Of a DNA stretch of 64,000 bases, positions 9-49,920 are shown one piece after another. Every line of letters starts with the position of its first letter. The stretch's first letter is position 1. The notes below the pieces were generated by a model. It did no database searches. It was given only the letters and a program-made list of their open reading frames with translations, and was not told the origin of the DNA. Both the position numbers and the translations under genes were made by a program. Source of the stretch: Bacillus sp. ISL-45 (GTDB lineage: Bacteria; Bacillota; Bacilli; Bacillales; Cytobacillaceae); NCBI RefSeq assembly GCF_018613195.1, contig NZ_JAGGQQ010000010.1, positions 1-64,000 of the forward strand, read 5' to 3'.

Positions 9-95
9 TTGACAGCTTTGAAGCTTGCCACACAAAAGCTGTCACGATTCTGGCTTTCTCATGACAGCTTAATGGGTTCCTCTTGAAAGCTGTCA
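9..95. repeat. Two-unit GACA/TGTC hairpin array (locus A)
   Basis: Two inverted-repeat units, 10-44 and 62-95, start exactly 52 bp apart. Each has a stem TGACAGCTT(T) paired with AAAGCTGTCA and a variable loop. The stretch after each unit is conserved (CACGATTC, C/T, GGCTTT). A degenerate trace (agctgtct) follows near 131. The same spacer motif CACGATTCCG recurs at 15.69 kb, linking the two loci. The rest of 96-225 shows no gene. Confidence 0.75.
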
Positions 96-241
96 CGATT
101 CCGGCTTTGCATTGAGAAGTTCTATGTAGTAGCTGTCTAATACCTGCCAGTAAATAAAGGGAATTCCCTCCAGTTTGTGTGACTCCTGATAAAAACGGGA
201 ATTATAAAGCATATGCCTAATTATAGACAGGAGGGATTCAT

Positions 242-565
242 ATGAGTTTTAACAATGGAGCAGGAAACAGCGGCAGTGGTGTTGGCGGAGGAGTTTTCCC
301 GGCGTACGCCATGAACAACGCAAATGGTGAAAACCAGGTGAAATTGAATGAGGATCAGTATGATATATATGTGAATGATGATTTTGTCGGTCAAAAAAGC
401 CTTAAGAATCAGGGGGAACATCTTTCTGACATCGATGACTTCTTAAAACAGCAGGGAATCACTGATTTTACAGCTTCCCTTGACGGTGACCACTACAAGA
501 TCCAGACCGATGGATTGAATGCGGAAATCACGGATGCTTTAAAGGTTTATTTTAATAATAGATAA
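242..565 (+). CDS. Hypothetical protein, glycine-rich N-terminus (107 aa)
   Basis: I do not recognise this gene. It has a strong AGGAGG ribosome binding site 7-8 nt before the ATG and is followed by an intrinsic terminator, so it looks like a complete single-gene unit. The first 30 residues are rich in Gly, Ser, Asn and Ala. The rest (about residues 33-107) is hydrophilic and looks like a small compact alpha/beta domain with an acidic patch (DDFL, SDIDDF). There is no signal peptide, membrane segment or cysteine pair. It is transcribed towards nrnA and shares a terminator with it. A small cytoplasmic or spore-associated protein is possible, but no function can be assigned. Confidence 0.7.
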   Translation: MSFNNGAGNSGSGVGGGVFPAYAMNNANGENQVKLNEDQYDIYVNDDFVGQKSLKNQGEHLSDIDDFLKQQGITDFTASLDGDHYKIQTDGLNAEITDALKVYFNNR

Positions 566-577
566 TGTTCAATAAGC

Positions 578-612
578 AAGGTGCGCTTCAGTATTGAAAC
601 GCACCTTTTTTG
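578..612. terminator. Bidirectional intrinsic terminator
   Basis: Stem GGTGCG-C-TTC paired with GAAACGCACC around a short ATT-type loop, followed by six T on the plus strand. The opposite side has an A-rich flank. It serves the 107-aa gene and probably nrnA, which converge here. Confidence 0.8.
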
Positions 613-619
613 TGGATCT

Positions 620-1555
620 CTATTCCTCACATGCTTTGATTAAGTCTCCAAGAACCCGGTCGACATCATCCCATGAATAAATGGATGCACCTGCAGCCAG
701 CGGATGGCCTCCGCCATTGTAATTTCTGGCGATTGTATTGATTACAGGCCCTTTGGAACGAAGGCGAACCCTGATTTGATCTTCTTCCTCAATGAAAAAT
801 ACCCAGGCCTTAATTCCCCTGACATTCCCCAGCTCACTTACAAGTAATGATGCTTCAGATGGCTTGACGGAATACTGATCAAGCAGCTCCCGTTTCATCA
901 CTACCTTGGCCGCACCATTTTCCAGCAGTTCAAAGTTCTGGAGGATGTATCCGTTCAACTTCACCACATTCGGCGCCAGCTCATACATTCTGTCATAAAG
1001 CTCTGTACGCGAGAAGTTATAGTGGATCAATTCTCCTGCATATGCAAAAGTTTTGTTAGTGGTGCTCGGATACAGGAATCGGCCAGTGTCGCCAACAATT
1101 CCGGCATACAGCAATCTGGCTGCCTCATCTGACATCCTCAGGCCCTTATCCTTGAAAGTAAGGTAAAACTCATAAATCATTTCACTTGTAGAGCTTGCTG
1201 AAGTCTCCACCCATAGAAGATCGCCGTACGGATCTTCATTCGGATGATGGTCAATTTTCACAAGTTGCTCCCCTAAACGGTAACGTTCATCACAAATTCG
1301 CTCGGCATTCGCTGTATCACAGACAATCACTAGCGCGCCTTTAAAAGTATCGTCCGAGATAGAATCAAGCCTTCTCAAATAGTTAAGCGATGGCTCCTCT
1401 GTGCCTACAGTGTAAATATTCTTTTCAGGGTACGAAGCCTTCAGGATTTCAGCAAGCCCTCCCTGCGAACCGTATGCATCAGGATCCGGCCTTACATGAC
1501 GATGGATAATGATCGTTTCATAGTTTTCAATAGTCTCAAGTATTTGCTCTTTCAT
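620..1555 (-). CDS. nrnA: Bifunctional oligoribonuclease / PAP phosphatase NrnA (YtqI)
   Basis: DHH/DHHA1-family phosphoesterase. In the family it degrades nanoRNAs and dephosphorylates 3'-phosphoadenosine 5'-phosphate in the cytoplasm. The N-terminal DHH domain has the metal-binding HRHVRPDPDAYGS motif near residue 18 and the defining IDHHPNEDP motif near residue 100. The C-terminal DHHA1 domain ends with NGGGHPLAAGA, which binds the substrate backbone. The first in-frame codon is a TTG, but the ATG directly after it is placed correctly behind GGAGGAG, giving 311 aa, the usual family length. Its neighbours ytpI and ytoI match the Bacillus subtilis order. Confidence 0.95.
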   Translation of the reverse strand: MKEQILETIENYETIIIHRHVRPDPDAYGSQGGLAEILKASYPEKNIYTVGTEEPSLNYLRRLDSISDDTFKGALVIVCDTANAERICDERYRLGEQLVKIDHHPNEDPYGDLLWVETSASSTSEMIYEFYLTFKDKGLRMSDEAARLLYAGIVGDTGRFLYPSTTNKTFAYAGELIHYNFSRTELYDRMYELAPNVVKLNGYILQNFELLENGAAKVVMKRELLDQYSVKPSEASLLVSELGNVRGIKAWVFFIEEEDQIRVRLRSKGPVINTIARNYNGGGHPLAAGASIYSWDDVDRVLGDLIKACEE

Positions 1556-1730
1556 CAAAATGCTCCTCCATCTTTTTCATATCTTAATTATGAACATATT
1601 TTTTGGAAAAGAAAAGCAGGAACCTTAACTGGCAGGGTACCGGCATTCTCTCCCAGTCTTCAACCTTTGCTTGGCAATCTCCATGGATAAGCTGTAAAAT
1701 AGAGTAGATTATGAATTTGGAGGAATTGCA

Positions 1731-2027
1731 ATGCCTATTCTCGTTTTATTGATCATTCTTTCACTTGTCTTCTATATCTTTTACAAGATTAAATATGTCC
1801 GCAGCAAAAGGCCTGCAGAGCGAAGCTGGCTTTCTGCAAAATCAAGCATCGCCCTGGGTTTGTTCGTCGCCCTTTTCGGGATCAACCAATTGTTCCTTTT
1901 CCAGACTGCTGTCACATACATCGTAGGTGCTATTTTCATTGTCATTGGTTCATTGAGCGTCTGGGGCGGGATCAAAGCATATAAGTTCTACCTTCCACAC
2001 GCTGCCAAGGAAGCCCAGGAAAATTAG
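1731..2027 (+). CDS. ytpI: YtpI family membrane protein (98 aa)
   Basis: Small integral membrane protein with three hydrophobic segments, at about residues 1-18, 38-57 and 61-82, and a basic stretch KIKYVRSKRPAERS between the first two. The start is set by TTTGGAGGAATTGCA before the ATG. Position between divergent nrnA and convergent ytoI matches ytpI of Bacillus subtilis. The biochemical role is unknown. It ends at a terminator shared with ytoI. Confidence 0.85.
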   Translation: MPILVLLIILSLVFYIFYKIKYVRSKRPAERSWLSAKSSIALGLFVALFGINQLFLFQTAVTYIVGAIFIVIGSLSVWGGIKAYKFYLPHAAKEAQEN

Positions 2028-2036
2028 AGTACAACA

Positions 2037-2068
2037 AAGCCGACCCTGTTATTAAGGATCGGCTTCTT
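2037..2068. terminator. Bidirectional terminator between ytpI and ytoI
   Basis: Hairpin AAGCCGACCC paired with GGATCGGCTT (one G-T pair), with T-rich sequence on the plus side. The two genes converge on it. Confidence 0.7.
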
Positions 2069-2075
2069 TCAACTG

Positions 2076-3395
2076 TTAATGTCTGTCGATCAGCTGACAC
2101 ATCATCATAGCCTTACCGACGAGAACGCCGTCATTGAAGGCTTCGATATCGACCTTACCGAACTTCCTTCCCACCTCTAGAACCTTCGGGTAGATCTCTA
2201 TGACACTGTCAATCTGCACTGGCTTGATAAAATAAATCGTCATATTCTCGACAACCAGGTCACCTTTTTTATACCCTCGCAGCACACGGTTCGCGGCTTC
2301 TGTGACGATTGTTGTAAACACGCCATATGAAATCGTCCCAAGGTGGTTTGTCATCTGCGGAGTCACCTGGCAGCGGAAAATGTCTTCATCCTTTGTTTTT
2401 CCTTTTGCCAGAACAAGCTGGTTCGTAACCGTATCATCAAGTGTTTCCCCTACTTGCGGCTGTCGCTGGATCATTTGCAGAGCCTTCAACACATCCTGTC
2501 TGCTGACAATGCCCTGAATCCTGTTGGCATCGTCCACAACTGGCAAGACTTCAATGCCCTCCCACACCATCATGTGAGCGGAGGATGCTACACTCGTCGA
2601 ACCGCTTACGGTCATCGGTTGTTTTGTCATGATCTTCTCAATCACTGTATCCTGTTCATGCCCCATGACATCCTTCGATGTGATCATCCCGATTACTTTC
2701 ATATTCTGGTCCACAACCGGAAAACGGCTGTGAAGCGTTTCATCCTTGTGCCGATACCAATCTGATACCCGGTCATTAGCCTTAAGGAAGATCGTTTCCG
2801 TAACCGGGGTCAGGATATCCTCGACAAGGATAATTTCCTTTTTGATCAACTGATCGTAAATCGCACGGTTGATCATCGTCGCTACTGTAAAAGTATCATA
2901 GCTGCTGGAGATGATCGGCAGCTGCAATTCATCGGCAAGTTTCTTTACATGGTCTTCAGTATCAAAACCACCGGTCACTAAAACAGCTGCTCCTGCCCGC
3001 AGCGCCTGCTCATGTGCTTTGTCGCGGTTCCCGACGATCAGCAGGTTGCCTGCACCCGTATAGCGCATCATCGCCTCAAGCTTCATCGCCCCGATGACGA
3101 ACTTGTTCAATGTTTTATGAAGCCCGGCACGGCCGCCCAGCACTTGCCCATCAACGATATTGACAACTTCGGCAAAAGTAAGTTTTTCAATGTTCTCTTT
3201 CTTTTTCCGCTCAATCCTGATGGTGCCGACACGTTCAATCGTGCTGACATACCCTTTATTTTCAGCATCCTTAATTGCTCTATATGCAGTTCCTTCGCTT
3301 ACGTTCAGCGCCTTGGCGATTTGGCGTACCGAGATTTTTTCTCCTATTGGCAATTCATCTATATATTGAAGTATTTGTTCATGCTTAGTTGCCAA
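2076..3395 (-). CDS. ytoI: YtoI: HTH-DRTGG-CBS-HotDog regulator-like protein
   Basis: Multidomain cytoplasmic protein of 439 aa. Order: an N-terminal winged HTH (residues about 1-70, with the EGTAYRAIKDAENKGYV helix region), a DRTGG domain (about 80-190), two CBS motifs (about 195-310, likely nucleotide sensing) and a C-terminal HotDog thioesterase-like domain (about 320-439, containing NHLGTISYG). The open frame extends 27 codons further upstream, but the TTG chosen here is preceded by AAGGGTGAAAG at good spacing. It also gives exactly the length of the Bacillus subtilis protein, starting with ATKHEQI. The domain set suggests a ligand-responsive transcription factor. Targets are unknown. Confidence 0.9.
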   Translation of the reverse strand: MATKHEQILQYIDELPIGEKISVRQIAKALNVSEGTAYRAIKDAENKGYVSTIERVGTIRIERKKKENIEKLTFAEVVNIVDGQVLGGRAGLHKTLNKFVIGAMKLEAMMRYTGAGNLLIVGNRDKAHEQALRAGAAVLVTGGFDTEDHVKKLADELQLPIISSSYDTFTVATMINRAIYDQLIKKEIILVEDILTPVTETIFLKANDRVSDWYRHKDETLHSRFPVVDQNMKVIGMITSKDVMGHEQDTVIEKIMTKQPMTVSGSTSVASSAHMMVWEGIEVLPVVDDANRIQGIVSRQDVLKALQMIQRQPQVGETLDDTVTNQLVLAKGKTKDEDIFRCQVTPQMTNHLGTISYGVFTTIVTEAANRVLRGYKKGDLVVENMTIYFIKPVQIDSVIEIYPKVLEVGRKFGKVDIEAFNDGVLVGKAMMMCQLIDRH

Positions 3396-3504
3396 GACTT
3401 TCACCCTTTTTAATAATTTTCCGTACAAAGTAGTTCTATCCATTATTATTATAAGGTTTAAAAGGGTTGGATTCAATTTAATTAGGATGGAAGTCCTTTA
3501 TATA

Positions 3505-3531
3505 GAAAAAACTGGCTGATTCTCAGCCAGT
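3505..3531 (-). terminator. Intrinsic terminator overlapping the 82-aa gene
   Basis: Perfect stem ACTGGCTGA-TTC-TCAGCCAGT at 3511-3531, followed on the minus strand by TTTTTT. The stop codon of the 82-aa gene (3523-3525) lies inside the hairpin. Confidence 0.85.
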
Positions 3532-3771
3532 GTAAACACGTGATTTCCTTTTCAAACTGCTTTCCATCTTCCTGCTGCCTGCCCTGGAACGTTTTTTCGG
3601 CGTGTATAAAAAGGCTGCCAGATTTCCCGCGAAGACCAGCAAGGCCAGGAACAGCCACGAACCGGCAAATAAAGCCTCTTTTCCTCCCATCTGGAAGTTG
3701 AGCTCCGGCATTCCTATGTAAAGCATCATGCCGCACAACAGCAAGTATAACAAGTAACGGTTCTTCTTCAT
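3523..3771 (-). CDS. Small membrane protein (82 aa), unknown function
   Basis: Two predicted transmembrane helices, at about residues 5-25 and 35-58, followed by a strongly basic C-terminal tail (KKRSRAGSRKMESSLKRKSR). The ribosome binding site AGGGGGAAG sits just ahead of the ATG. The gene lies between ytoI and ytkL on the same strand and ends inside its own terminator hairpin. A positive-inside tail suggests a hairpin topology with both ends in the cytoplasm. I do not recognise a named family. Confidence 0.75.
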   Translation of the reverse strand: MKKNRYLLYLLLCGMMLYIGMPELNFQMGGKEALFAGSWLFLALLVFAGNLAAFLYTPKKRSRAGSRKMESSLKRKSRVYTG

Positions 3772-3841
3772 CTTCCCCCTCCTACAGGTTGTCTTGGTTT
3801 ATATCTATGCTTCCAGGACAAAAATTAGCATGGCCAAATAG

Positions 3842-3872
3842 AAAAAGCTGCACAACTTTTTGTGCAGCTCTT
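3842..3872 (-). terminator. Terminator of ytkL
   Basis: Stem AAGCTGCACA paired with TGTGCAGCTC, followed by TTTTTC on the minus strand, immediately after the ytkL stop. Confidence 0.8.
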
Positions 3873-3877
3873 GACTT

Positions 3878-4558
3878 CTATAATTCAATTGCCTCTCCTG
3901 CTTCAAGAACAGTGCCTTTATTTTTCTTAAGCATTTTAACAAAAGCATGCGGATCCTGCTTGATTGGCGGGAATGTGTTGAAATGAATCGGAACAACTTC
4001 CTTCGCATCCAGGAATTCCGCTGCCAATGCCGCATCTTCCGGGCCCATTGTAAAATTGTCGCCAATCGGCAGAAATGCCAGGTCAATCGGATGTCTCTCC
4101 CCAATAAGCTTCATGTCTGAAAACAGACCCGTGTCACCTGCATGGAACACGGTCTTCCCTTCTGCCATGAACAGAATCCCAGCAGGCATGCCGCCATAAA
4201 TGATTTCATTGTTCTCAGTTACCATTCCTGTTCCATGGAAGGCAGGAGTCATTTTGACCTTGCCAAAATCAAATTCATACGCACCGCCAATCGACATGCC
4301 ATGCGTGTTCAAGCCCTTCCAGCTTAAATATGTAGCCACTTCGAAATTGGCGATTACAAGCGCATCATGCTTCTTCGCCAGTTCGACCGTATCCCCAAGA
4401 TGGTCGCCATGGGCATGAGTAAGGATGATGACGTCAGGCTTTACATCTTCCACCTTCAGATCGGTCAGGTCATTGCCTGTAATGAATGGATCAATCAGGA
4501 TTGTCTTCCCATTTGTTTCGATTTTTACAACCGAATGTCCGTGATAAGATACTTTCAT
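3878..4558 (-). CDS. ytkL: UPF0173 metallo-beta-lactamase-fold hydrolase YtkL
   Basis: Metal-dependent hydrolase of the metallo-beta-lactamase superfamily, 226 aa. The binuclear metal site is visible as [11 protein letters not shown] near residue 53, with further ligands in FHAGDTGLF and in the C-terminal PIHFNTFPP. The N-terminus [11 protein letters not shown] is characteristic of the UPF0173 group. The ATG at 4558 has AAAGGAG at the right spacing, so the 30 upstream in-frame codons are not translated. The physiological substrate of the family is unknown. Confidence 0.93.
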
Positions 4559-4800
4559 ATTATCGCTCCTTTCATTCAAGGCTTTTTTTGGGCAATAAAC
4601 CGCTGCAGTTTTAGGCATCATGCCGCCGCTGACCTGCAGCCTCTGCAAAAAGCCATCCTAATAATTTATTTCAACACTCTTTGCCTATCTCCTTCTTCCA
4701 TTTTCTTTTTACCCAACAACCTCTCTCGTTAAAAGTTTTACTTTTCACCTGCGAATTGCTACTCTCATAGTGTGATGTACATATCAGAGGAGGAATTTCT

Positions 4801-5898
4801 ATGACGGAAAGATTGGCTGCGTTATCAGGCTGGATGAAGGACAATGGTGTCGACGTCACTTTTGTTACATCTCCTGATAATGTATTTTACCTAAGCGGAT
4901 TTTTAAGCAATCCTCACGAAAGACTGCTGGCAGTTGCTGTATTCCAGGATGCCGAGCCGTTCATGATTTGCCCGGCAATGGATAAAGAAAATGCTAAAAA
5001 TGCCGGATGGGAACTTGAAATCATCGGCTACAGTGATACGGATGATTCCATGGAGCTTGCTTACAATGCGATTAAGAACCGCGTTCCTTCAATCAAGAAA
5101 ACCGCGATTGAGAAGGAACAATTGAATGTAGAGCGTTATGAAAAAATGGCTGGCCTGTTTGGCGGCTCTGAATTTGTTTCAGCAGAGGAAAAACTGCGCC
5201 AGATGCGAATGATCAAAACAGAAGCTGAATTGCAGAAACTGAGAAAAGCGTGTGAGCTGGCCGACTTTGCCATAGAGACAGGGGTAAATGAAATCCAGGA
5301 AGGCAAAACCGAGCTAGATGTCCTTGCAGCAATTGAATTTGAATTGAAGAAAAAGGGCGTAACGGAAATGTCGTTTTCAACGATGGTCCTTACTGGTAAA
5401 AATGCAGCAGCACCGCACGGGACACCTGGGCTGACGAAGATCAAGAAAGGTGACCTCGTCCTGTTCGACCTTGGCGTTGTGATGGATGGCTACTGCTCTG
5501 ATATCACACGGACCGTTGCGTACGGTGAGATCAATAAACAGCAGGAAGAAATTTATAACACCGTTTTAAAAGCACAGCTTAAAGCCCTGGATACTGCACG
5601 GGCTGGTGTTGCCTGCTCAGAGGTCGACCTTGCTGCACGCAATGTGATAGAAGAAGCTGGATACGGCGACTACTTCCCTCACCGCCTTGGGCACGGACTC
5701 GGAGTCAGCGTCCACGAATATCCATCATTGACCAGCACGAATCCTTTATTAATGGAAAAAGGAATGGTGTTCACCGCTGAGCCTGGTATATATGTACCTG
5801 GCGTTGCGGGAGTGAGAATTGAAGATGATGTCGTTATCACCGAGGATGGAATCGAAATCCTAACGAAATTCCCTAAAGAATTGGTCTTTGTATCGTAA
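4801..5898 (+). CDS. M24-family Xaa-Pro dipeptidase / aminopeptidase P
   Basis: Pita-bread metallopeptidase that removes N-terminal residues next to proline, with 365 aa (papA/papB-like length). A creatinase N-terminal domain (about 1-130) precedes the catalytic domain. All five metal ligands can be placed: two Asp in LFDLGVVMDGYCSDITRT, His in GHGLGVSVHEYPS, Glu in FTAEPGIY and Glu in RIEDDVVI. The start follows AGAGGAGGAATTTCT. It stands alone between ytkL and queF and has its own terminator. Whether it is closer to PapA or PapB cannot be decided here, so no symbol is given. Confidence 0.93.
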   Translation: MTERLAALSGWMKDNGVDVTFVTSPDNVFYLSGFLSNPHERLLAVAVFQDAEPFMICPAMDKENAKNAGWELEIIGYSDTDDSMELAYNAIKNRVPSIKKTAIEKEQLNVERYEKMAGLFGGSEFVSAEEKLRQMRMIKTEAELQKLRKACELADFAIETGVNEIQEGKTELDVLAAIEFELKKKGVTEMSFSTMVLTGKNAAAPHGTPGLTKIKKGDLVLFDLGVVMDGYCSDITRTVAYGEINKQQEEIYNTVLKAQLKALDTARAGVACSEVDLAARNVIEEAGYGDYFPHRLGHGLGVSVHEYPSLTSTNPLLMEKGMVFTAEPGIYVPGVAGVRIEDDVVITEDGIEILTKFPKELVFVS

Positions 5899-5906
5899 AA
5901 AGAATC

Positions 5907-5944
5907 AAAACCGCCTGCGATCCCGGATCCAGGCGGTTTGTTTT
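5907..5944 (+). terminator. Terminator of the Xaa-Pro peptidase gene
   Basis: AAACCGCCTG pairs with CAGGCGGTTT around a 12-nt loop, followed by a T-rich run. Confidence 0.85.
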
Positions 5945-5989
5945 AGTGAAAAAGCTAGTTTCCAAAGGCGTAAACAATCCGCTTCAGCT

Positions 5990-6082
5990 TTCTTATAGCA
6001 GTAATTTCTTTTTTATAGCGAGTTTTAATTTTTTATAGCGAGTTTCAGTTTTTTATAGCGAAAAAATCATTTTTATAGCGAA
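5990..6082. repeat. Tandem 20-bp TATAGCGA array, five units
   Basis: TATAGC begins at 5994, 6014, 6034, 6054 and 6074, a period of exactly 20 bp. Units have the form (C)TTTTTTATAGCGAGTTT with A/T-rich filler, and the first unit is degenerate. There is no inverted repeat and no ORF. The array sits in the gap between two convergent genes (peptidase and queF). Confidence 0.8.
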
Positions 6083-6147
6083 TTGGAAAAAATCCATCTT
6101 TTTTTCCAGTTAAAAAAGAGCAGCACAAGCAGCTGCTCTTCCTCTAA

Positions 6148-6645
6148 TTAGCGATTATCCACTTTTTCCGGATACATATCATGGTTCATCATCCGGTAGT
6201 TTGCCATTTCTTCATACTTCGTTCCGGGCTTGCCGTAGTTAGTATACGGATCAATTGAGATGCCGCCTCTTGGAGTGAATTTGCCCCAAACCTCAATATA
6301 CCTTGGATCCATCAGTTTGATCAGGTCATTCATGATGATGTTCATGCAGTCTTCGTGAAAATCACCGTGGTTCCTGAAGCTGAACAAATATAATTTCAGC
6401 GCTTTGCTTTCAACCATCAATTTGTCAGGAATGTAGCTGATATAAATCGATGCAAAATCAGGCTGGCCTGTGATCGGGCAAAGACTCGTGAATTCGGGGG
6501 TATTGAATTTAACAAAATAATCTCGATATGGGTGCTTATTTTCAAACGTTTCAAGGATTTCAGGAGAGTACTCAAACAAGTATTTTGTTCCCTGATTGCC
6601 TAGCAGTGTCAAATCTTTCATTTCTTCATCTTTTCTTCCAGCCAT
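6148..6645 (-). CDS. queF: NADPH-dependent 7-cyano-7-deazaguanine reductase QueF
   Basis: Unimodular (short) QueF of 165 aa, which reduces the nitrile preQ0 to the amine preQ1 in queuosine biosynthesis. The active-site Cys lies in [12 protein letters not shown] near residue 55 and the family signature [15 protein letters not shown] follows near residue 79. Catalytic His is in HGDFHEDC. The ATG is preceded by AGGAGGC. Unlike Bacillus subtilis, where queF closes the queCDEF operon, it stands alone here and has its own preQ1 riboswitch and terminator upstream, so it is feedback-regulated by its product. Confidence 0.96.
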
Positions 6646-6703
6646 TTTAAAGCCTCCTATTTGATCTGCAAACGCTTTTGAGGCCCATGAACTCTGCTTA
6701 TCA

Positions 6704-6734
6704 AATAAAAAACCATATCCTCTGGGATATGGTT
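6704..6734 (-). terminator. Expression-platform terminator of the preQ1 riboswitch
   Basis: Perfect 10-bp stem AACCATATCC / GGATATGGTT with a TCTG-type loop, followed on the minus strand by TTTTTTATTT. It lies between the aptamer and queF, so it is a regulated leader terminator, not a gene-end terminator. Confidence 0.85.
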
Positions 6735-6749
6735 GAAATTCTTCAAAGC

Positions 6750-6786
6750 CATAGTTTTTTATAGAGGGTGTCCGCTATGAACCTCT
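6750..6786 (-). promoter_or_regulatory. preQ1-I riboswitch aptamer upstream of queF
   Basis: On the minus strand the sequence reads AGAGGTTCATAGCGGACACC, then CTCT, then the A-rich tail ATAAAAAACTATG. This matches the class I preQ1 aptamer: P1 stem AGAGG/CCTCT, C-rich loop, and an A-rich 3' tail that folds back to form the pseudoknot. It is followed at once by a terminator and then queF. When preQ1 binds, transcription should stop early. Confidence 0.92.
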
Positions 6787-6825
6787 CCCGCGATTGCAGG
6801 ATGATTTATTCATTTTTATATAGCA

Positions 6826-6854
6826 ACTATAAAGAAATGCCCTTCCAAAGTCAA
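6826..6854 (-). promoter_or_regulatory. Sigma-A promoter for queF leader
   Basis: On the minus strand TTGACT (6849-6854) and TATAGT (6826-6831) are separated by 17 bp. The start would fall near 6819, about 33 nt upstream of the preQ1 aptamer. Confidence 0.75.
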
Positions 6855-6907
6855 AAGAAAATTTTTGTTATAAGATATGACAAATTCATGTATTTCCATT
6901 TTTTATT

Positions 6908-6958
6908 TTTACATTTGTTCATTAGGTTATTTACATATGTTCACCTACCTGATATATT
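6908..6958 (+). promoter_or_regulatory. deoC-cdd promoter with direct-repeat operator
   Basis: TTTACA (6930-6935), a 17-bp spacer and TATATT (6953-6958) form a sigma-A promoter. Two near-identical 14-mers, TTTACATTTGTTCA at 6908 and TTTACATATGTTCA at 6930, lie 22 bp apart, and the second overlaps the -35 element. This fits a repressor operator. DeoR control is known for deo operons in Bacillus, but assigning DeoR here is inference, since no deoR gene is in the window. Confidence 0.6.
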
Positions 6959-7010
6959 ATTCATGTAAGTGACACATAATAAATTTGGGTTATATATTTT
7001 TTATTCTGAA

Positions 7011-7023
7011 TGAAAGCGTTTCA
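7011..7023 (+). promoter_or_regulatory. cre-like site before deoC
   Basis: TGAAAGCGTTTCA is a perfect 13-bp palindrome that resembles the CcpA site but is one base shorter than the 14-bp consensus. It lies downstream of the deoC promoter, where a bound repressor could block elongation. Confidence 0.4.
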
Positions 7024-15654: not shown

Positions 15655-15745
15655 TTTGACAGCTTTTCCTGTGTTTACCAAATCTGTCACGATTCCGTTG
15701 TTTTCTTGACAACTTTTCCTTGTTTCCCACTCAAACCTGTCTGAA
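15655..15745. repeat. Degenerate GACA/TGTC hairpin pair (locus B)
   Basis: TTGACAGCTTTTCC with TCTGTCA (15656-15689) and TTGACAACTTTTCC with CTGTCTGA (15706-15744) start 50 bp apart. The stretch after the first unit, CACGATTCCG, equals the conserved spacer of the array at 9-95. No gene is supported in 15599-15852. Confidence 0.6.
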
Positions 15746-18872: not shown

Positions 18873-18903
18873 AAAAGAACCGGGTATTGATCCGGTTCTA
18901 TTG
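18873..18903 (-). terminator. Terminator of ytxK
   Basis: AGAACCGG / CCGGTTCT stem followed by TTTTTTCATTT on the minus strand. The ytxK stop codon (18898-18900) is part of the stem. Confidence 0.8.
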
Positions 18904-19893
18904 CTGTTCCGTTTTATTATCTTTAAACCATTGATCGATTTTATTCAGCATCCTGTTCACCGCTGGGCCGTCGGATAGCTTTGGAAGCTCGGCAAGGAGT
19001 GCCTGCTTTGGCGCTTTCACTTCTTCACCATTCTTTTGCAGAATAAGGATACTTTTAGCTGCCTGCTTGTTTTTAAACAGAGAAGCCGGAAGCTGTAAAA
19101 TACCCTGGACAATCAGATTGTTTTTAATGAACTCATGCAGCATTGGGGCTTGTTCACTTTCGAAAAGGCCATTGGGTATCATGAAGAACAAATATCCGCC
19201 TTCTTTTACATGCTTCGTACTTTGCTCAATGAACATGTGATGAGAGTATGTATGGCCATCTTTTGCTTTTACCTCATATTGCTCCGCTCGAAGGTCATTC
19301 GGGTAGTAACCGACTGGAAGGTCACAAATGACTGCATCCGCCGGATCAACAAACAATGGTTCAAGGCTGTCCTGATTGAAAAACTCGACCGGATGCTTTT
19401 GGAGATTAGCATTTACAAAAGCCAGCCGGATCAGCAGGTCATCAATTTCAACACCGACAGACTCGATTTCCTTATCCGTCTGCTGGTTCAATACCGTCGC
19501 CAGCAAGTTCCCAGTTCCGACCGCAGGGTCAAGCAGCCTAAATGACTTCTTGTCGACAAACTTATTGACCAGGTAGCCAATGAACATGCCGACAGAATCA
19601 GGTGTCATTTGATGATTCGGCTGAACATGCTCCTTCATTCCTTTCAAAATCGCAAGCTGGAAGCCTTTGCGGATTTCTTCTTTGCTAAAAGAATCAAGGT
19701 TAGTCTCCTTATATACTTTTTCAAGCCGTTTTGTTGTGACTTCATTCAGTTCGTCCTGGAGCACTGTGCCCTGGAACATGTTTTCCCCGCTTTCCGCAAG
19801 CGCCTCTAAATATGTACAAGATAACTCTTCTTTTAAAATATCTGCTGTTGTATTGAATGCAGTAAATAATTGTTCGACCGGAGTCATACTCAC
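18898..19893 (-). CDS. ytxK: YtxK, class I SAM-dependent methyltransferase-like protein
   Basis: 331-aa protein with an adenine-specific DNA methyltransferase-like fold. SAM-binding motif I is DPAVGTGNLL near residue 126. The catalytic motif, usually NPPY/F, reads DLPVGYYP near residue 204, so the key Asn is replaced. This may mean a different substrate or no DNA methylation. A GTG start at 19893 is preferred because AGGAGG is 7 nt away; the ATG two codons later would be 13 nt away. About 78 further upstream in-frame codons run through the hairpin array at 20.0 kb and are rejected. It lies upstream of ackA as in Bacillus subtilis. Confidence 0.88.
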   Translation of the reverse strand: MSMTPVEQLFTAFNTTADILKEELSCTYLEALAESGENMFQGTVLQDELNEVTTKRLEKVYKETNLDSFSKEEIRKGFQLAILKGMKEHVQPNHQMTPDSVGMFIGYLVNKFVDKKSFRLLDPAVGTGNLLATVLNQQTDKEIESVGVEIDDLLIRLAFVNANLQKHPVEFFNQDSLEPLFVDPADAVICDLPVGYYPNDLRAEQYEVKAKDGHTYSHHMFIEQSTKHVKEGGYLFFMIPNGLFESEQAPMLHEFIKNNLIVQGILQLPASLFKNKQAAKSILILQKNGEEVKAPKQALLAELPKLSDGPAVNRMLNKIDQWFKDNKTEQQ

Positions 19894-20013
19894 TTTTCTT
19901 CCTCCTGATTTGAATAGATATTTATATATTTTAGCCGTGTTTCGCATTGGGTACAAGGCATATGACTGGAAAGCAATTGGGCAACCTTGCGATCCATGCA
20001 TGTGAACAGAAAT

Positions 20014-20111
20014 TTTATCGGACACTTTTCCCGTTCTCCGCCTTCTGTTTGTCCGATAAAGCTCTCCTATCGGGCACTTTCTCGCTTTCCGCTTCCCGTT
20101 TGTCCGATAGG
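20014..20111. repeat. Two-unit GACA/TGTC hairpin array (locus C)
   Basis: Unit 1 (20014-20060): TTTATCGGACA pairs perfectly with TGTCCGATAAA. Unit 2 (20066-20111): CCTATCGGGCA pairs with TGTCCGATAGG, with one G-T pair. The conserved TATCGG starts at 20016 and 20068, exactly 52 bp apart. The outer three base pairs differ between units but remain paired. Confidence 0.85.
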
Positions 20112-20151
20112 AAGCGAAGCGGGGCATAAAAGAAACCTGTATTCAAAGTAA

Positions 20152-26224: not shown

Positions 26225-26360
26225 TTGCGGACATAGCTTCTTTTTGTGTCTCCATAAGGGTAATGAATGACGCTTTCTTCTGATCCTGCGCCTCCATAAT
26301 TCCAATGGATGACGCTTTTTCTGGTTTCGCTTCTTATTCTGTCTCCATTAGGGCGATGGT
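26225..26360. repeat. Degenerate GAC/GTC hairpin repeats (locus D)
   Basis: Phrases CTCCATAAGGG, CTCCATAATTCC and CTCCATTAGGG (TCCAT at 26251, 26293, 26345) alternate with ATGACGCTTTCTTCTG and ATGACGCTTTTTCTGG. AATGGATGAC pairs with GTC-TCCATT across about 26 nt (one bulge), and GGACA with TGTC-TCC just before. Spacing is irregular (42 and 52 bp). No gene is supported in 26126-26405. Confidence 0.55.
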
Positions 26361-40152: not shown

Positions 40153-40355
40153 GATGACGGACAATTTTTCCGTTTCATCATCGATTTTTGTCCGTCATAA
40201 CCTGGATGACGGACAGTTTTTCTCGTTCCACCCGCAATTTTTGTCCGTCATAACCTGGATGACGGACAGTTTTTCTCGTTTCACCAGTGATTTTTGTCCG
40301 TCATACCCTGATGACGGACAGTTTTCTCGTTCCACCAGCGATTTTTGTCCGTCAT
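40153..40355. repeat. Four-unit GACA/TGTC hairpin array (locus E)
   Basis: Units at 40153-40198, 40205-40251, 40258-40304 and 40310-40355 start 52, 53 and 52 bp apart. Each has a perfect 10-bp stem ATGACGGACA / TGTCCGTCAT around a 26-27-nt loop of the form TTTTTCTCGTTCCACC followed by GATTT or a variant. Units are joined by AACCTGG or a similar short spacer. An open frame across the array (plus strand) is a by-product of the repeats. The array lies between convergent rpsD and tyrS. Confidence 0.9.
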
Positions 40356-41689: not shown

Positions 41690-41940
41690 CCAATAAAAAA
41701 CGCCCCTGCAATAAATGCAGGGGCGCTGTATGCGCGGTACCACCCGGCTTGAAAACAAAACAAAAAAATGTCTTCCACTCAATAAAATAACGGTTAAACC
41801 GTCCGCGGCTACTATGTATACAGTTCACTGCGGCGCTCGGGGAGGTAATTCATCCTTCTGTTTGTACCGGCTCACAGCAGCCGCCGGCTTTCTGGAACAG
41901 TGACAGAAGCACTACTCATTCCCTTCACAGCTTTTTGCTA
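41690..41940 (-). promoter_or_regulatory. T-box riboswitch (tyrosine) upstream of tyrS
   Basis: On the minus strand the T-box core GGGTGGTACCGCG is followed by the terminator GCCCCTGCA-TTTAT-TGCAGGGGC and a T-run. Stem I upstream shows AATGAG and the GGATGAATTACCTCC region, where UAC (41845-41847) is a plausible Tyr specifier codon. The leader lies between a sigma-A promoter and tyrS. Confidence 0.92.
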
Positions 41941-45004: not shown

Positions 45005-45025
45005 CAAATGAATATAAGTAGAAAC

Positions 45026-45059
45026 ACCGCATCTTGTCGGATGCGGTGTTTCTTTTTTC
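45026..45059 (+). terminator. Terminator of the PBP gene
   Basis: ACACCGCATC / GATGCGGTGT stem followed by TTCTTTTTT. Confidence 0.9.
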
Positions 45060-45069
45060 TGTGAATACT

Positions 45070-45107
45070 AAAGAGCGTGAAGCCCAGCTTCACGCTCTTT
45101 AGTATGA
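45070..45107. terminator. Terminator of acsA (bidirectional hairpin)
   Basis: AAAGAGCGTGAAG / CTTCACGCTCTTT perfect 13-bp stem with a CCCAG loop, between convergent genes. Confidence 0.8.
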
Positions 45108-45112
45108 TTCTA

Positions 45113-46831
45113 TTAGTCTTCCATTGTGGACAAATCGCCAGTTGGGAGATCAAGTTCCCAGGCTTTCAATACACGGCGCATGATTTTACCGCTTCGTGTC
45201 TTAGGAAGCTTGTCGCGGAATTCAATTTCTCTTGGTGCAGCATGTGCAGCAAGGCCCTTTTTAACGAATTGGCGAATCTCTTCGATCAATTCATCAGATT
45301 GCTCATAACCGTCACGCAAGGCGATGAACGCCTTGATGATTTCACCGCGGACCGGGTCTGGCTTGCCAATGACACCCGCTTCAGCAACTGCTGGGTGTTC
45401 CACAAGTTTGCTTTCTACTTCAAATGGCCCTACACGCTCACCGGAAGTCATGATGACATCATCAATTCGTCCCTGGAACCAGAAGTAGCCATCTTCATCC
45501 ATATAGGCTGAATCACCGGAAACGTACCAGTCACCAGGCATGAAGTAGGACTCATACTTCTGAGGATTGTTCCAGATTGTATGCATCATCGATGGCCAGC
45601 CCTTCTTAATCGCTAAATTGCCCATTCTGTATGGCGGCAATTCATTCCCCTGGTCATCGACAATTGCGGCTTTTACGCCTGGGATTGGCTTACCCATTGA
45701 TCCAGGCTTGATTTCCATGCTTGGATAGTTACAGATCAATTGAGCCCCCGTCTCCGTCATCCACCATGTATCATGGATGCGCAGGCTGAACACCTTCATT
45801 CCCCATCTTACTACCTCAGGGTTCAGCGGTTCGCCGACACTCAGGATATGGCGAAGTGAGCCAAGGTCGAACTTCTTTACAACCTCATCACCCGCACCCA
45901 TCAGCATCCTGAAAGCTGTTGGGGCACTGTACCAGACTGACACTCCGTACTCTTCGATCATCTTATACCATGTCTCTGGATTGAAACGTCCGCCAATGAT
46001 GACATTGGACGTTCCTGCAAGCCATGGACCGAAAATTCCGTACGATGTTCCTGTTACCCAGCCTGGATCTGCTGTGCACCAGTAGACATCTTCTTCTTTA
46101 AGGTCAAGTACCCATTTAGCAGTCTGATAATGCTGGATCATCGCATTATGGACATGGAGGACGCCTTTAGGTTTTCCAGTCGAACCGGAAGTATAATGCA
46201 AAATCAGCCCATCTGTACGGTCAACCCACTCGATTTCAAGCTTTTTGCTGGCTTCAGCTAGTTTTTGCTTGAAATCAACGCACTTGTCATTCTCCTCAAT
46301 ATTATCGCCGACAAGAAGAATGTGCTTCAGGTCAGGAAGTTCATCAACAGGAACACGCTCAAGCAGCTCAGGTGTTGTCACCAATACCTTTGCCCCGCTG
46401 TCCTGCAGTCTGTCACGGACAGCACCTTCCATGAATGCTTCGAAAAGCGGGCCAACAATCGCGCCCAGCTTGACCGCCCCGAGAACTGCGAAATACAGTT
46501 CTGGAGAACGAGGCATGAAGATAAACACGCGGTCCCCCTTTTCTACATCACCATAAGTTTTAAAGACATTGCCTGCTTTATTTGAAAGCTCCTTCATTTC
46601 TTTAAAAGTATATTTTTCCTTGCGCACCCCATCCTGATAATAAAGCGCAATTTTATTTTTCCTGAATCCTTCAGCATGGCGGTCGATCGCTTCATAAGCC
46701 ATATTGACCCTGCCTGTCTCAGACCAGGAAAACTCTTTCTCCGCTTCAGTCCAATCAAACTGGCCATGAAGCTCTTGATAATTTTTCAGGTTATGATCCC
46801 CTTGTGTAACTGGTAGCGCTTCCACTTTCAT
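45113..46831 (-). CDS. acsA: Acetyl-CoA synthetase AcsA
   Basis: AMP-forming enzyme that activates acetate to acetyl-CoA; 572 aa, the same length as in Bacillus subtilis. The adenylation motif is LHYTSGSTGKPKGVLHVH near residue 208, with WWMTETGAQ, and GRIDDVIMTSGERVGPFEVE at the domain hinge. The catalytic Lys in LPKTRSGKIMRRVL near residue 549 is the site acetylated by AcuA. The ATG at 46831 follows AAGGGGGATGGATAC. It is divergent from acuABC, which regulates it. Confidence 0.96.
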   Translation of the reverse strand: MKVEALPVTQGDHNLKNYQELHGQFDWTEAEKEFSWSETGRVNMAYEAIDRHAEGFRKNKIALYYQDGVRKEKYTFKEMKELSNKAGNVFKTYGDVEKGDRVFIFMPRSPELYFAVLGAVKLGAIVGPLFEAFMEGAVRDRLQDSGAKVLVTTPELLERVPVDELPDLKHILLVGDNIEENDKCVDFKQKLAEASKKLEIEWVDRTDGLILHYTSGSTGKPKGVLHVHNAMIQHYQTAKWVLDLKEEDVYWCTADPGWVTGTSYGIFGPWLAGTSNVIIGGRFNPETWYKMIEEYGVSVWYSAPTAFRMLMGAGDEVVKKFDLGSLRHILSVGEPLNPEVVRWGMKVFSLRIHDTWWMTETGAQLICNYPSMEIKPGSMGKPIPGVKAAIVDDQGNELPPYRMGNLAIKKGWPSMMHTIWNNPQKYESYFMPGDWYVSGDSAYMDEDGYFWFQGRIDDVIMTSGERVGPFEVESKLVEHPAVAEAGVIGKPDPVRGEIIKAFIALRDGYEQSDELIEEIRQFVKKGLAAHAAPREIEFRDKLPKTRSGKIMRRVLKAWELDLPTGDLSTMED

Positions 46832-46867
46832 GTATCCATCCCCCTTGGCTTTATATTTAAAATCCAT

Positions 46868-46896
46868 TATAGTATAAAAATTCGATTTTCTCAATT
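46868..46896 (-). promoter_or_regulatory. Sigma-A promoter of acsA
   Basis: On the minus strand TTGAGA (46891-46896) and TATAAT (46868-46873) are 17 bp apart; the start would be about 30 nt upstream of the acsA ATG. Confidence 0.7.
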
Positions 46897-46983
46897 TTTA
46901 AAATATTAATAGAATATAAAAACATTCCTCTTTGAAGTGCGATTCCGTCAAGGAAAGTCTTAAACTAAATACAGAAAATTTTG

Positions 46984-46997
46984 TGAAAGCGCTTTTA
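46984..46997 (+). promoter_or_regulatory. cre site in the acsA-acuA intergenic region
   Basis: TGAAAGCGCTTTTA matches the CcpA consensus except for one position. It lies about 17 bp upstream of a TATAAT (47014-47019) before acuA, so CcpA binding would overlap the acuABC -35 region. A cre here is known in Bacillus subtilis. Confidence 0.75.
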
Positions 46998-47056
46998 TAT
47001 GTTAGATTTTATGTATAATAGAATTATCGTTTGAATTGTTGACTGGTGGTGACTGA

Positions 47057-47689
47057 ATGGAACATAAAAAGACTTATAACGCAACAGAATTAAAAACTCC
47101 TCATGGCCGTTTGATCATTGAAGGCCCGATTTCTCCGGAAAAACTTGCAAGCTATGAATTCCATGAAGATTTAGTGGCTTTTCGTCCACCTGCCCAGCAG
47201 CACAAGGCATTGGTTGAGATTGCCGGTCTGCCGGAGGGACGTATCATCGTAGCCCGCTCAGGCCATATGATTGTCGGCTATGTTACTTATCTCTATCCTG
47301 ACCCTCTTGAAAGATGGTCTGAAGGAAAAATGGAAGATTTAATAGAACTTGGTGCAATCGAGGTCATTCCTGAATTCCGCGGCAGCCGAGTCGGCAAGAA
47401 TTTGCTGATGGTTTCCATGATGGATGACGCGATGGAAGATTATATCATTATCACAACTGAATACTACTGGCATTGGGACCTGAAAGGAACCGGCTTGAAT
47501 GTTTGGGAATACCGCAAAGTCATGGAAAAAATGATGAATGCCGGCGGCCTGACCTGGTACGCGACAGATGATCCGGAAATCAGCTCCCATCCAGCAAACT
47601 GTTTGATGGCGCGAATCGGCAAGAGGATTGGGCCGGAATCGATCCAGAAATTTGACCAGCTGCGGTTCATGAACCGTTTTATGTATTGA
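47057..47689 (+). CDS. acuA: Protein N-acetyltransferase AcuA
   Basis: 210-aa GNAT-fold enzyme that acetylates and inactivates AcsA. The acetyl-CoA-binding motif A is visible as VIPEFRGSRVGKNLL near residue 105, and the YYWHWDLKGTGLNVWEYRKV block is conserved in AcuA. ATG follows GGTGGTGACTGA. It leads the acuABC operon, with 41 bp to acuB. Confidence 0.95.
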   Translation: MEHKKTYNATELKTPHGRLIIEGPISPEKLASYEFHEDLVAFRPPAQQHKALVEIAGLPEGRIIVARSGHMIVGYVTYLYPDPLERWSEGKMEDLIELGAIEVIPEFRGSRVGKNLLMVSMMDDAMEDYIIITTEYYWHWDLKGTGLNVWEYRKVMEKMMNAGGLTWYATDDPEISSHPANCLMARIGKRIGPESIQKFDQLRFMNRFMY

Positions 47690-47729
47690 TGATTAATAAG
47701 AAGCCTCATCATGCAAGGAGGAAGGAACC

Positions 47730-48377
47730 ATGATCGTCGAGGAAATTATGAAAAGGGATGTCACGACACTTTTTCCTGAAAATACAATTGCCGAAGCAAT
47801 TAAGCTAATGGCGGATAAAAAAATCCGCCACATCCCGATCGTGAATAAGGACCAAGGTGTGATCGGCCTGGTATCCGACAGGGATATCAAAGATGCAGCT
47901 CCGTCCGTTTTTCATTGGGATGAGCACAAGGGTGAACTTGACAATCCTGTCAAATCAATTATGACGACTAATGTGATCACTGGACATCCCCTCGATTTTG
48001 TCGAGGAAATTTCTGCAATCTTTTATGAACATAATATCAGCTGCCTGCCGATCACCAAGGATAAAAAACTGGTAGGTATCGTCACTGAAACGGACTTGCT
48101 CCATACACTTGTTGAGCTTACAGGTGCCCATCAGCCAGGATCGCAAATTGAAGTGAAAGTACCAAACAAAGCGGGCATGCTTTGTGAAATTGCATCTGTT
48201 ATCAGCTTGAGGAAAGCCAATATCCAGAGCGTGCTAGTATACCCTGACCCAAAGGATGAAGGTTATAAAATCCTTGTTGTAAGAATACAGACGATGAATC
48301 CGATCGCAGTGATCGAGGACTTGAAAAAGGCCGGACATCACGTACTCTGGCCAAACCTGCCGGGTGTTTCATCATGA
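47730..48377 (+). CDS. acuB: AcuB: tandem CBS and ACT domain protein
   Basis: 215-aa protein with two CBS motifs (about residues 1-60 and 75-130) and a C-terminal ACT domain (about 138-212, IEVKVPNKAGMLCEIASVIS). The domains suggest sensing of adenine nucleotides and a small ligand; the exact role in acetoin/acetate use is not settled. Start follows AAGGAGGAAGGAACC. It overlaps acuC by four bases (ATGA), so the two are translationally coupled. Confidence 0.94.
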   Translation: MIVEEIMKRDVTTLFPENTIAEAIKLMADKKIRHIPIVNKDQGVIGLVSDRDIKDAAPSVFHWDEHKGELDNPVKSIMTTNVITGHPLDFVEEISAIFYEHNISCLPITKDKKLVGIVTETDLLHTLVELTGAHQPGSQIEVKVPNKAGMLCEIASVISLRKANIQSVLVYPDPKDEGYKILVVRIQTMNPIAVIEDLKKAGHHVLWPNLPGVSS

Positions 48378-49546
48378 GCGATCGCTCTGTATTCGTCTTT
48401 TCAGAGGAGCTGCTGAACTATCGCTTCAGCAGCCACCATCCTTTCAACCAGATTAGGTTGAAGCTTACGCTGGATTTGCTGCGTAAAGTGGGCGCCATTG
48501 ATGAAGAACATATAGTTGCGCCCCGGATGGCAACGGATGAGGAACTTCACCTCGTTCATGATCCCAATTTTGTAAACGCTGTTAAGCTTGCTGGCCAGGG
48601 AAAGCTTAAGGGTGAATCCGCGGAAGGATATGGACTGGGAACGGAGGACACACCGATTTTTGAAAATATGCATGAAGCGAGTGCTCTGCTTGTTGGGGGC
48701 ACCCTGACAGCTGTGGATTATGTCATGAACGGCAAAGCCAGCCACGCACTGAATCTTGGCGGCGGCCTTCATCATGGCTTCCGTGGGAAAGCATCCGGCT
48801 TCTGTATTTACAACGACAGTTCTGTAGCGATAAAATACCTGCAGAAAAAATACAATGCCCGCGTGTTATATGTCGATACTGATGCCCACCATGGTGATGG
48901 CGTACAATGGTCATTTTACGATGATCCTGATGTATGCACTCTATCGATCCATGAAACGGGACGCTACCTATTCCCAGGTACAGGAAATGTGAATGAACGC
49001 GGCCAGGGCAAAGGCTATGGATATTCTTTCAATATCCCTGTCGATGCCTTCACAGAAGACGACTCTTGGCTTGATGCCTATAGACATGCTCTGATGGAAG
49101 TGGCCGAGTTTTTTAAACCGGATGTCATTCTTACCCAAAATGGTGCAGATGCGCATTATCTTGACCCATTGACTCATTTATCCGCTACGATGAAAATCTA
49201 CCGGGAAATCCCAAAGCTTGCGCATGAAGTCGCCCATAAATATTGCGGAGGCAAATGGATTGCTGTAGGCGGCGGAGGCTACGATATTTGGCGCGTGGTA
49301 CCAAGAGCCTGGTCACTGATCTGGCTTGAAATGATTGAAAACTCAAACTCTTATGGCAGTTTGCCGCAGGAATGGATAGAAGAATGGAAGGATTCAGCCC
49401 CTGTGAAATTGCCACAAGAGTGGGACGATCCTGAAGATTTATATCCGCCAATTCCGCGAAAGCCGGAAATCACGGAAAAAAATGCCCAAACAGTGGAGAA
49501 GGCCTTGTATCCAATCAGGTCCAACAAAAAATCTGAAACTGTATAA
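48374..49546 (+). CDS. acuC: NAD-independent protein deacetylase AcuC
   Basis: 390-aa class I histone-deacetylase-like zinc enzyme that removes the acetyl group from AcsA. Active-site elements are LGGGLHHGFRGKASGFCIYND (His pair), VLYVDTDAHHGDGVQW (Asp and His zinc ligands) and the later QNGADAHYLDPLTHLSAT (zinc Asp). GGGGYDIWRVVPRAW closes the pocket. It ends the acuABC operon at a terminator. In Bacillus subtilis motPS follows; here a repeat array takes that place. Confidence 0.95.
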   Translation: MSDRSVFVFSEELLNYRFSSHHPFNQIRLKLTLDLLRKVGAIDEEHIVAPRMATDEELHLVHDPNFVNAVKLAGQGKLKGESAEGYGLGTEDTPIFENMHEASALLVGGTLTAVDYVMNGKASHALNLGGGLHHGFRGKASGFCIYNDSSVAIKYLQKKYNARVLYVDTDAHHGDGVQWSFYDDPDVCTLSIHETGRYLFPGTGNVNERGQGKGYGYSFNIPVDAFTEDDSWLDAYRHALMEVAEFFKPDVILTQNGADAHYLDPLTHLSATMKIYREIPKLAHEVAHKYCGGKWIAVGGGGYDIWRVVPRAWSLIWLEMIENSNSYGSLPQEWIEEWKDSAPVKLPQEWDDPEDLYPPIPRKPEITEKNAQTVEKALYPIRSNKKSETV

Positions 49547-49552
49547 GTACGG

Positions 49553-49588
49553 TAACCGGGAGATTTGTGTTCCCGGTTTTTTTTGTTT
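49553..49588 (+). terminator. Terminator of acuABC
   Basis: AACCGGGA / TCCCGGTT stem followed by TTTTTTTGTTTG. Confidence 0.85.
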
Positions 49589-49619
49589 GTTTTTAAAAAG
49601 GTCAGTAAATTAGTACAGG

Positions 49620-49920
49620 TTCAGACAAAGTTGCGGCTTCCCCTCCTGACTTTGTCTAAAGTGACCTCAGGTTCAGACAAAATTACGGCTTCCACTCCTG
49701 ACTTTGTCTGAAGTGACCCCAGGTTCAGACAAAATTACGGCTTCCACTCCCGATTTTGTCTGAAGTGACCTCAGGTTCAGACAAAGTTGCGGCTTCCCCT
49801 CCCGATTTTGTCTGAAGTGACCTCAGGTTCAGACAAAATTGCGGCTTCCCCTCCCGATTTTGTCTGAAGTGACCTCAAGTTCAGACAAAATTACGGCTTC
49901 CACTCGGGATTTTGTCTGAA
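49620..49920. repeat. Six-unit GACA/TGTC hairpin array, exact 52-bp period (locus F)
   Basis: Units start at 49620, 49672, 49724, 49776, 49828 and 49880. Each is 40-41 bp: TTCAGACAAA pairs with TTTGTCTGAA around a loop ATTACGGCTTCCACTCCCGA or close variant. Units are joined by GTGACCTCAGG. Only unit 1 has a stem mismatch (TTTGTCTAAA). The loop motif CGGCTTCCAC resembles CTCGTTCCAC of the array at 40.2 kb. No ORF is supported. It fills the gap between acuC and ccpA. Confidence 0.93.

Follow-up and report, generated by a model that had tools for sequence, protein, structure and literature searches.

Between the genes of a 64,000-nucleotide stretch of Bacillus sp. ISL-45 (assembly GCF_018613195.1, contig NZ_JAGGQQ010000010.1, positions 1 to 64,000; hereafter the window) lie tandem arrays with a period of 52 bp. 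I propose, with a probability of about 0.6, that these arrays are scattered copies of the target arrays of a family of NERD nucleases, and that gene and arrays may together make up a selfish system. The gene, NERD-A, lies outside the window and encodes a protein of about 302 amino acids, with a NERD PD-(D/E)XK nuclease domain, a zinc ribbon, and a winged-helix-like end. Computational support comes from the geometry of the arrays, their linkage to the gene, the co-occurrence of the two across genomes, the tracking of half-sites of paralogues with the C-terminal region of the protein, the sharing of spacers between arrays, and vertical inheritance in one genus.

A preliminary description of the window, made from its sequence, had noted a constant period combined with stems that differ from locus to locus, and this is borne out. 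Whatever the stem, the invariant is GACA-N25-TGTC-N19, repeated every 52 bp. Chains of at least five sites, taken from the window, 20 stretches of its own genome, and 80 named loci, have the gap of 25 in 865 of 896 cases, the gap of 19 in 842 of 862, and the period of 52 in 1562 of 1639, though the named loci were fetched by the exact pattern and are hence biased in spacing. The own-genome loci, picked by blastn similarity to one array, give by themselves 219 of 225, 211 of 216, and 399 of 414, respectively. The window's genome has 380 occurrences of the two-unit pattern GACA-N25-TGTC-N19-GACA-N25-TGTC and none of the reversed pattern, so chance is excluded as the source of the recurrence.

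The arrays are tied to one gene family. Clustering of flanking genes (25 clusters shown) places a NERD-domain family beside arrays in the window's own genome and in four named genera, one copy being split into two open reading frames (ORFs). The counts that follow come from newly fetched loci, except that the own-genome gene on contig C22 recurs (L019, L213, and L252 are the same). The test, which is blind to the GACA motif, asks for periodicity of 51-53 or 103-105 bp in the 900 bp behind and before each gene. A periodic array is found behind the gene in 27 of 27 loci in a first set, comprising the best loci (before it in one), in 38 of 38 in a second, drawn from further down the match list (before it in none), and in 26 of 28 in a third, comprising other congeners and exceptions (again none before). 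The own genome contributes six of six, none before, one of these genes being also in the first set. Overall, a 52-bp array stands directly behind 96 of 98 distinct NERD-A genes and upstream of one, many of the loci being orthologues and hence not independent events. The two misses are a gene whose contig ends about 146 bp past it (L367) and a protein of genome G110 that is 27% identical (L369). The count omits two partial genes and five loci whose downstream sequence is under 150 bp or mostly N; genes with internal stops were kept. The first periodic window begins at a median of 40 nucleotides past the end of the gene match (66 loci).

Gene and array also occur together across 397 sampled genomes of the order. 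The two-unit pattern is present in 67 of them, from 28 of 135 genera, with no match to the control, and the NERD protein matches 146 at E <= 1e-30. Both are found in 64 genomes, the array only in 3, NERD only in 82, and neither in 248 (Fisher p 5e-29). Put otherwise, NERD-A is present in 64 of 67 genomes with arrays, compared with 82 of the 330 without. In a profile search of the three exceptions, G110 yields two weak partial matches and the other two, G037 and G374, none. NERD genomes that lack GACA arrays need not be exceptions, because the arrays behind such genes carry other half-sites, such as ATGAACGCC/GGCGTTCAT or CGGACTC/GAGTCCG. Several NERD genes of GACA-free genomes end a contig within a few hundred bases.

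The window itself holds five array loci, as first described, with boundaries now corrected; no strand is assigned to any of them. The largest, six units with half-sites TTCAGACAAA/TTTGTCTGAA (49620-49920), has an exact 52-bp period and lies before ccpA, in a convergent setting. Blastn aligns it over 232 columns, at 70.7% identity, with the array that follows the NERD-A gene on contig C22 of the own genome (L252). A four-unit array with ATGACGGACA/TGTCCGTCAT (40153-40355), spaced 52/53/52, has rpsD on one side and tyrS on the other and matches an array of congener G005 that follows a NERD-A gene (L306; blastn, 77% over 210 columns, E 4e-35). The remaining three are imperfect, with start-to-start distances of 50-53. 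One, of two units with TATCGGACA/TGTCCGATA (20014-20109), has GGCA for its second GACA and agrees at 80.6% of 103 aligned columns with the array that follows the NERD-A gene of own-genome contig C19 (L249). Another two-unit array, with TGACAGCTTT/AAAGCTGTCA (10-95; GACA at 11 and 63, TGTC at 40 and 91), has as its top blastn matches the arrays behind NERD-A genes of congeners (L311 and L219, 72-77%), and the array of the own-genome C3 gene (L251) follows at 71%. The last, a degenerate two-unit array of the TGACAGCTTT kind (15656-15744), matches by blastn the NERD-linked L216 (78.5%), L218, and L251. As judged by these alignments, the arrays at 10-95 and 15656-15744 match TGACAGCTTT-type NERD-linked arrays weakly. 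A sixth candidate, at 26225-26360, has to be dropped from the family: it is without any half-site word and has no blastn match to the nuclease-linked arrays. The claim that all loci are intergenic holds with one exception, the array at 20014, which runs into the beginning of an ORF called mechanically (18898-20127). That ORF is probably over-extended.

It was also suggested that a structure or a spacing is selected. Spacing is indeed conserved, but the hairpin fails as the selected thing. The idea that selection maintains a fold, be it an RNA structure or a DNA hairpin (terminator, RNA element, or cruciform), draws its appeal from the complementarity of the stems across arrays: at the four base pairs beside TGTC/GACA, 75-88% of 114 array consensuses are complementary, compared with 34-44% expected. 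Complementarity of this sort could reflect either a hairpin or a symmetric protein site. Compensation should then be seen within arrays if hairpins matter, and it is not. Over 15 arrays, the pair adjoining the core is formed in 82 of 148 units, against 80.2 expected, and there is no consistent excess at other positions or for an alternative hairpin (z ranges from -2.5 to +2.6, the top value coming from one array). Arrays between co-directional genes show G.U above A.C on the sense strand in 21 cases and below it in 12 (118 versus 73 cells), an excess that is not significant (p 0.16). Where the gene faces the array, a terminator-like site intervenes between its end and the array in 39 of 100 cases, compared with 5 of 53 on sides where the gene faces away. 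The strict length of the spacer also speaks against the hairpin, as does Rfam, which at gathering score matches no array in the window and finds there one element, the T-box leader before tyrS (41716-41937, minus strand). Hairpin or RNA selection, rejected on the independent variation of the arms within arrays, is therefore very improbable. Because changes in the two arms do not go together, as a hairpin would require, I conclude that the arms are separate, inverted half-sites, read singly on a single helical face, and that helical phasing accounts for the conserved lengths. Beyond the GACA core, 92-94% of arrays have A or T as the third base toward the 25-bp spacer.

What might read such half-sites? 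The NERD-A proteins, 33 of which were aligned (four loci with stops or cut ends were dropped), have invariant E42, D74, and K89 and four invariant cysteines. Pfam recognizes the NERD domain (PF08378) above its cut-off and zinc-ribbon families below it. An AlphaFold2 model (mean predicted local distance difference test 91.7, predicted template-modelling score 0.82) has helices at 244-258, 266-272, and 279-289, followed by strands, which may be read as a winged helix. The best solved structures found by Foldseek are mostly nucleases, with modest scores: R2 retrotransposon proteins (E 4e-4), VC1899, the Bax1 nuclease, bunyavirus cap-snatching endonucleases, BspD6I subunits, and McrBC. I take these matches to indicate PD-(D/E)XK kinship, and NERD-A has the conserved residues of that group and, as modelled, its fold. 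Some NERD-A genes are split or carry stops, yet stand beside an array (e.g., L104, 214-1167). This suggests birth and decay of loci.

Paralogues differ in their half-sites. Ten NERD genes are present in the own genome. Four belong to a longer type, B; the other six are of type A, and each of these has a different array next to it. In a 402-kb sample of that genome, chosen for TTC arrays, copies of the C22 family are found at 18 places (one its own locus), of C3 at 5, of C19 at 1, and of the array of one type B gene (L244) at 1; reversed patterns give 0. Similarity of half-sites was correlated with similarity of protein regions over 26 gene-array pairs, these being the aligned proteins, out of 34, with a usable GAC/GTC pair (L241, L239, L248, and L250 were left out). 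The correlation is highest for the C-terminal region (r 0.43), followed by the zinc region (0.40), the NERD domain (0.36), and the middle (0.29). Given the NERD domain, the partial correlation is 0.26 for the C-terminal region (p 0.002), 0.21 for the zinc region (p 0.006), and 0.02 for the middle (not significant). Given the C-terminus, that of the NERD domain is 0.06. The association also predicts: the half-site pattern taken from the array behind a gene of G339 has 341 forward matches in G339 and none in the other 59 genomes.

That a copying mechanism is at work had been suspected, and genome G339 bears this out in one respect, that distant arrays have spacers in common. A NERD-linked array has 27-bp spacers identical to those of arrays about 1.6 Mb distant, two in common with each of two loci. 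Among the dispersed arrays of that genome, three share 3, 3, and 4 spacers among themselves and a fourth shares none. Within arrays there are higher-order periods of 2, 3, 4, and 5 units and slippage-like indels. The gene loci behave differently. Two orthologous gene sets keep their upstream neighborhood between congeners (82-92% over more than 1.1 kb), and paralogues share only about 70-120 bp before the start. Identical spacers and conserved neighborhoods together imply that units move between arrays, that gene loci are mostly inherited vertically within the genus, and that spread is slow. Among the arrays of G339 (L343-L347), spacers have their purine-rich strand on plus at four loci near 1.7 Mb and on minus at 3.39 Mb; perhaps this strand follows the direction of replication.

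The model I envisage is the following. Each NERD-A gene would sit immediately upstream of a master array, whose 52-bp period would correspond to five helical turns and whose sites would usually be inverted half-sites. Each paralogue would have its own half-site, and copies of some arrays would come to lie at many intergenic places. The zinc-ribbon/winged-helix end would bind half-sites as a dimer, or as a row of dimers, along one face of the DNA, and the PD-(D/E)XK domain might then nick or cut within the array. Recombinational repair or copying, by hypothesis, would lengthen, homogenize, and spread the arrays. Gene and array might thus persist as a homing-like selfish unit, with harmless intergenic satellites.

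A scan of named genomes for four-unit arrays gives at least 112 stretches. The 80 that are listed come from Bacillota, including Mesobacillus, Neobacillus, Cytobacillus, Litchfieldia, Evansella, Ureibacillus, Virgibacillus, and, once, Trichococcus, except for those of a genome labelled Chryseobacterium sp. ISL-80 (L052, L094, L108, and L109), a label that is probably wrong. Viral contigs yield a single stretch, and carriage of arrays by phage was rejected as an explanation on that ground. NERD-A is within the fetched stretch at only 5 of 99 array loci.

Arrays favor certain gaps between genes. Convergent gaps account for 30 of 80 array groups, compared with 56 of 389 other intergenic stretches (p 6e-6), and divergent gaps, where arrays are rare, for 7 of 80 compared with 107 of 389. 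These counts rest on a simple ORF caller and on gaps with genes on both sides, 23 of 103 array groups at edges or inside ORFs having been dropped. The slots downstream of ccpA and tyrS, compared by eye in 20 congeners (L157-L207), hold the same array with a related spacer, a tandem array of about 20-21 bp, some other array, or none. The array is thus kept at these loci in some congeners, and in others its place is taken by another kind or is empty.

Can these observations be explained otherwise? One might regard NERD-A as a structural protein that binds arrays to mark intergenic boundaries and organize the chromosome, its nuclease activity being secondary. The helical phasing, the preference for convergent genes, the scatter over the genome, and the positions kept in some congeners all fit. 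Against this stand the invariance of the catalytic residues, the turnover of positions between congeners, and the change of half-site with each paralogue, which a structural protein would not need. I consider this improbable. A role in defense or conflict is likelier than that, though still unlikely. On this view invading DNA would be the substrate of the NERD nuclease, and the chromosomal arrays, as decoy, store, or mark of self, would hold, concentrate, or license the enzyme. Conserved catalytic residues, several paralogues of diverging specificity, and a patchy distribution speak for it, and the NERD part has weak matches, below cut-off, to the defense kinases PglW and MAD6. But neither PADLOC nor NCBIfam has a specific family for the protein, and arrays persist in genomes where NERD-A is not found.

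Two other views have little room left. The arrays might be tandem duplications, accidental and functionless, with the NERD genes merely tolerating those downstream of them. Higher-order duplications and slippage-like indels are what one would see in that case, but an accident is contradicted by the identical two gap lengths, found with unrelated sequences in 28 genera, and by the fact that 96 of 98 genes of a single family are linked to an array. Its chances are about as slim as those of the hairpin. Slimmer still are those of REP/BIME elements moved by RAYT. The layout, a gene with dispersed repeats, is similar, and the own genome does have REP-transposase-like genes: of its three Y1 matches, two long ones are of this sort, below cut-off. 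These have hairpins of their own, unrelated to the arrays, and no array unit within 1.5-kb flanks, so the link to a Y1 transposase that had been raised is not supported. RAYT/REP identity was rejected on this absence of the array repeat beside the two long Y1 genes and on the lack of compensatory change in hairpins. The GC-rich hairpins by the REP-transposase-like genes are of GTGACAGGCACCTCCC type and GGGGGTCTGACCCCC type (L210, 1405-1443 and 2022-2070; L211, 293-334 and 2052-2090). Hairpin selection, RAYT, and accident are thus largely excluded. An early idea, prompted by the half-site consensus, that the sites might be sub-sites of a Tn3-type serine resolvase was given up in favor of the NERD linkage.

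Several considerations nonetheless weigh against the proposal of a selfish nuclease and its satellites. It rests on computation: I infer the binding, and the cutting and copying are put forward as hypotheses. Orthologous arrays stay at one locus across species, so spread must be slow, and 6 of the 10 own-genome NERD-linked arrays have no copy in the 402-kb sample. Two half-site families of the own genome have no partner next to its ten NERD genes. The number of TTC arrays in the genus does not simply follow the presence of a close C22 orthologue (G016 has 241 pattern matches and a best protein of 69%). The arrays behind some genes (e.g., L248 and L250) lack clear inverted half-sites. Arrays are present in G037 and G374, two genomes in which NERD-A has no match at 1e-15. 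Finally, in the correlation of half-sites with protein regions, related pairs count as exchangeable, which may make the p values too favorable.

Comparison with known systems brings out what is unusual. The REP/RAYT system is like that of NERD in having one gene beside its own repeat, many dispersed intergenic repeats, and several families per genome (in part PMC3733652). It differs in that the NERD enzyme is a PD-(D/E)XK and not a Y1 protein, and its targets are tandem, phased arrays of half-sites rather than hairpins. CRISPR-like arrays (PMC10910872) are regular and stand beside a nuclease gene, and a figure legend in that paper lists NERD among putative CRISPR auxiliary genes. The spacers of NERD arrays, however, are near-identical copies, some identical between arrays, and not unique, and the repeats are inverted half-sites. 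The stem-loop repeats bcr1 and Bhal-1, the latter an undescribed family in B. halodurans, are likewise intergenic and in bacilli, but the part of PMC2267715 consulted mentions no 52-bp array or gene partner for them (Bhal-1 is set apart here by its description, not by sequence). Homing endonucleases are site-specific nucleases whose genes stay with their target and are kept there by repair copying. The same is hypothesized for NERD-A. Unlike theirs, the NERD target is a tandem array mostly apart from the gene, and its half-sites diverge with each paralogue. The supposition that no such family has been described stands, insofar as the open-access literature (subscription journals and bioRxiv were outside the scope) gave no description of such arrays or of a gene-plus-repeat system of this kind, and nothing that joins the NERD domain to tandem repeats. 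Words from the array sequences had 440 literature matches; the 15 listed appear, as judged by title, to be to primers.

A sister group, NERD-B, may extend the picture. The type B protein matches 279 of 397 genomes. Around 24 of 30 NERD-B loci (L253-L282, ten of them from the window's genus; the own-genome genes are L243-L246), an 8-mer occurs at least three times within 600 bp, at spacings of 17-25 bp, which are 20 or 21 in all runs. These runs lie upstream of the gene in 21 of 24, and shuffled flanks reach at most one copy. Among the 30 type B genes, a 52-bp periodicity follows the gene in one case and precedes it in one. The NERD-B arrays appear to resemble the short arrays at orthologous slots in congeners. 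Words taken from the 20-21 bp arrays of congeners do not chain into a run in the sampled own-genome sequence. The window contains a 20-bp direct array of the NERD-B kind, with ACTCGCTATAAAA (5989-6084, no strand assigned), that is 79-83% identical to arrays upstream of NERD-B genes L253/L244 and L256.

I suggest tentatively, at somewhat less than even odds, that we are dealing with a new class of selfish nuclease-satellite. NERD nucleases would write and spread their own phased arrays in two architectures, 52-bp arrays behind NERD-A and 20-21 bp direct arrays beside NERD-B. Up to about ten such genes per genome, each with a private DNA code, would shape much of the intergenic repeat content of bacilli. 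The linkage connects a little-understood nuclease domain with its likely DNA targets and offers an explanation for a widespread class of tandem repeats. Dozens of natural pairs of protein and half-site offer a readable code of DNA recognition, and the origin and spread of bacterial satellite DNA become testable in soil bacteria that are harmless. It also suggests why several draft genomes break at places where arrays lie.

Some minor observations remain. A direct repeat, TTAACA-N5-TTCACA, is found upstream of NERD-A in 14 of 68 regions (e.g., L213-L215, L218, and L219), compared with 1.2% when shuffled, and in 0 of 30 NERD-B regions. Ten of those 14 regions belong to one genus. The repeat resembles the consensus of a PhoP box. 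A NERD gene stands near upp in B. methanolicus (PMC12802215). The 36-bp tandem repeats at 62550-62985 of the window lie within a long minus-strand ORF (60445-63924) and are a protein repeat.

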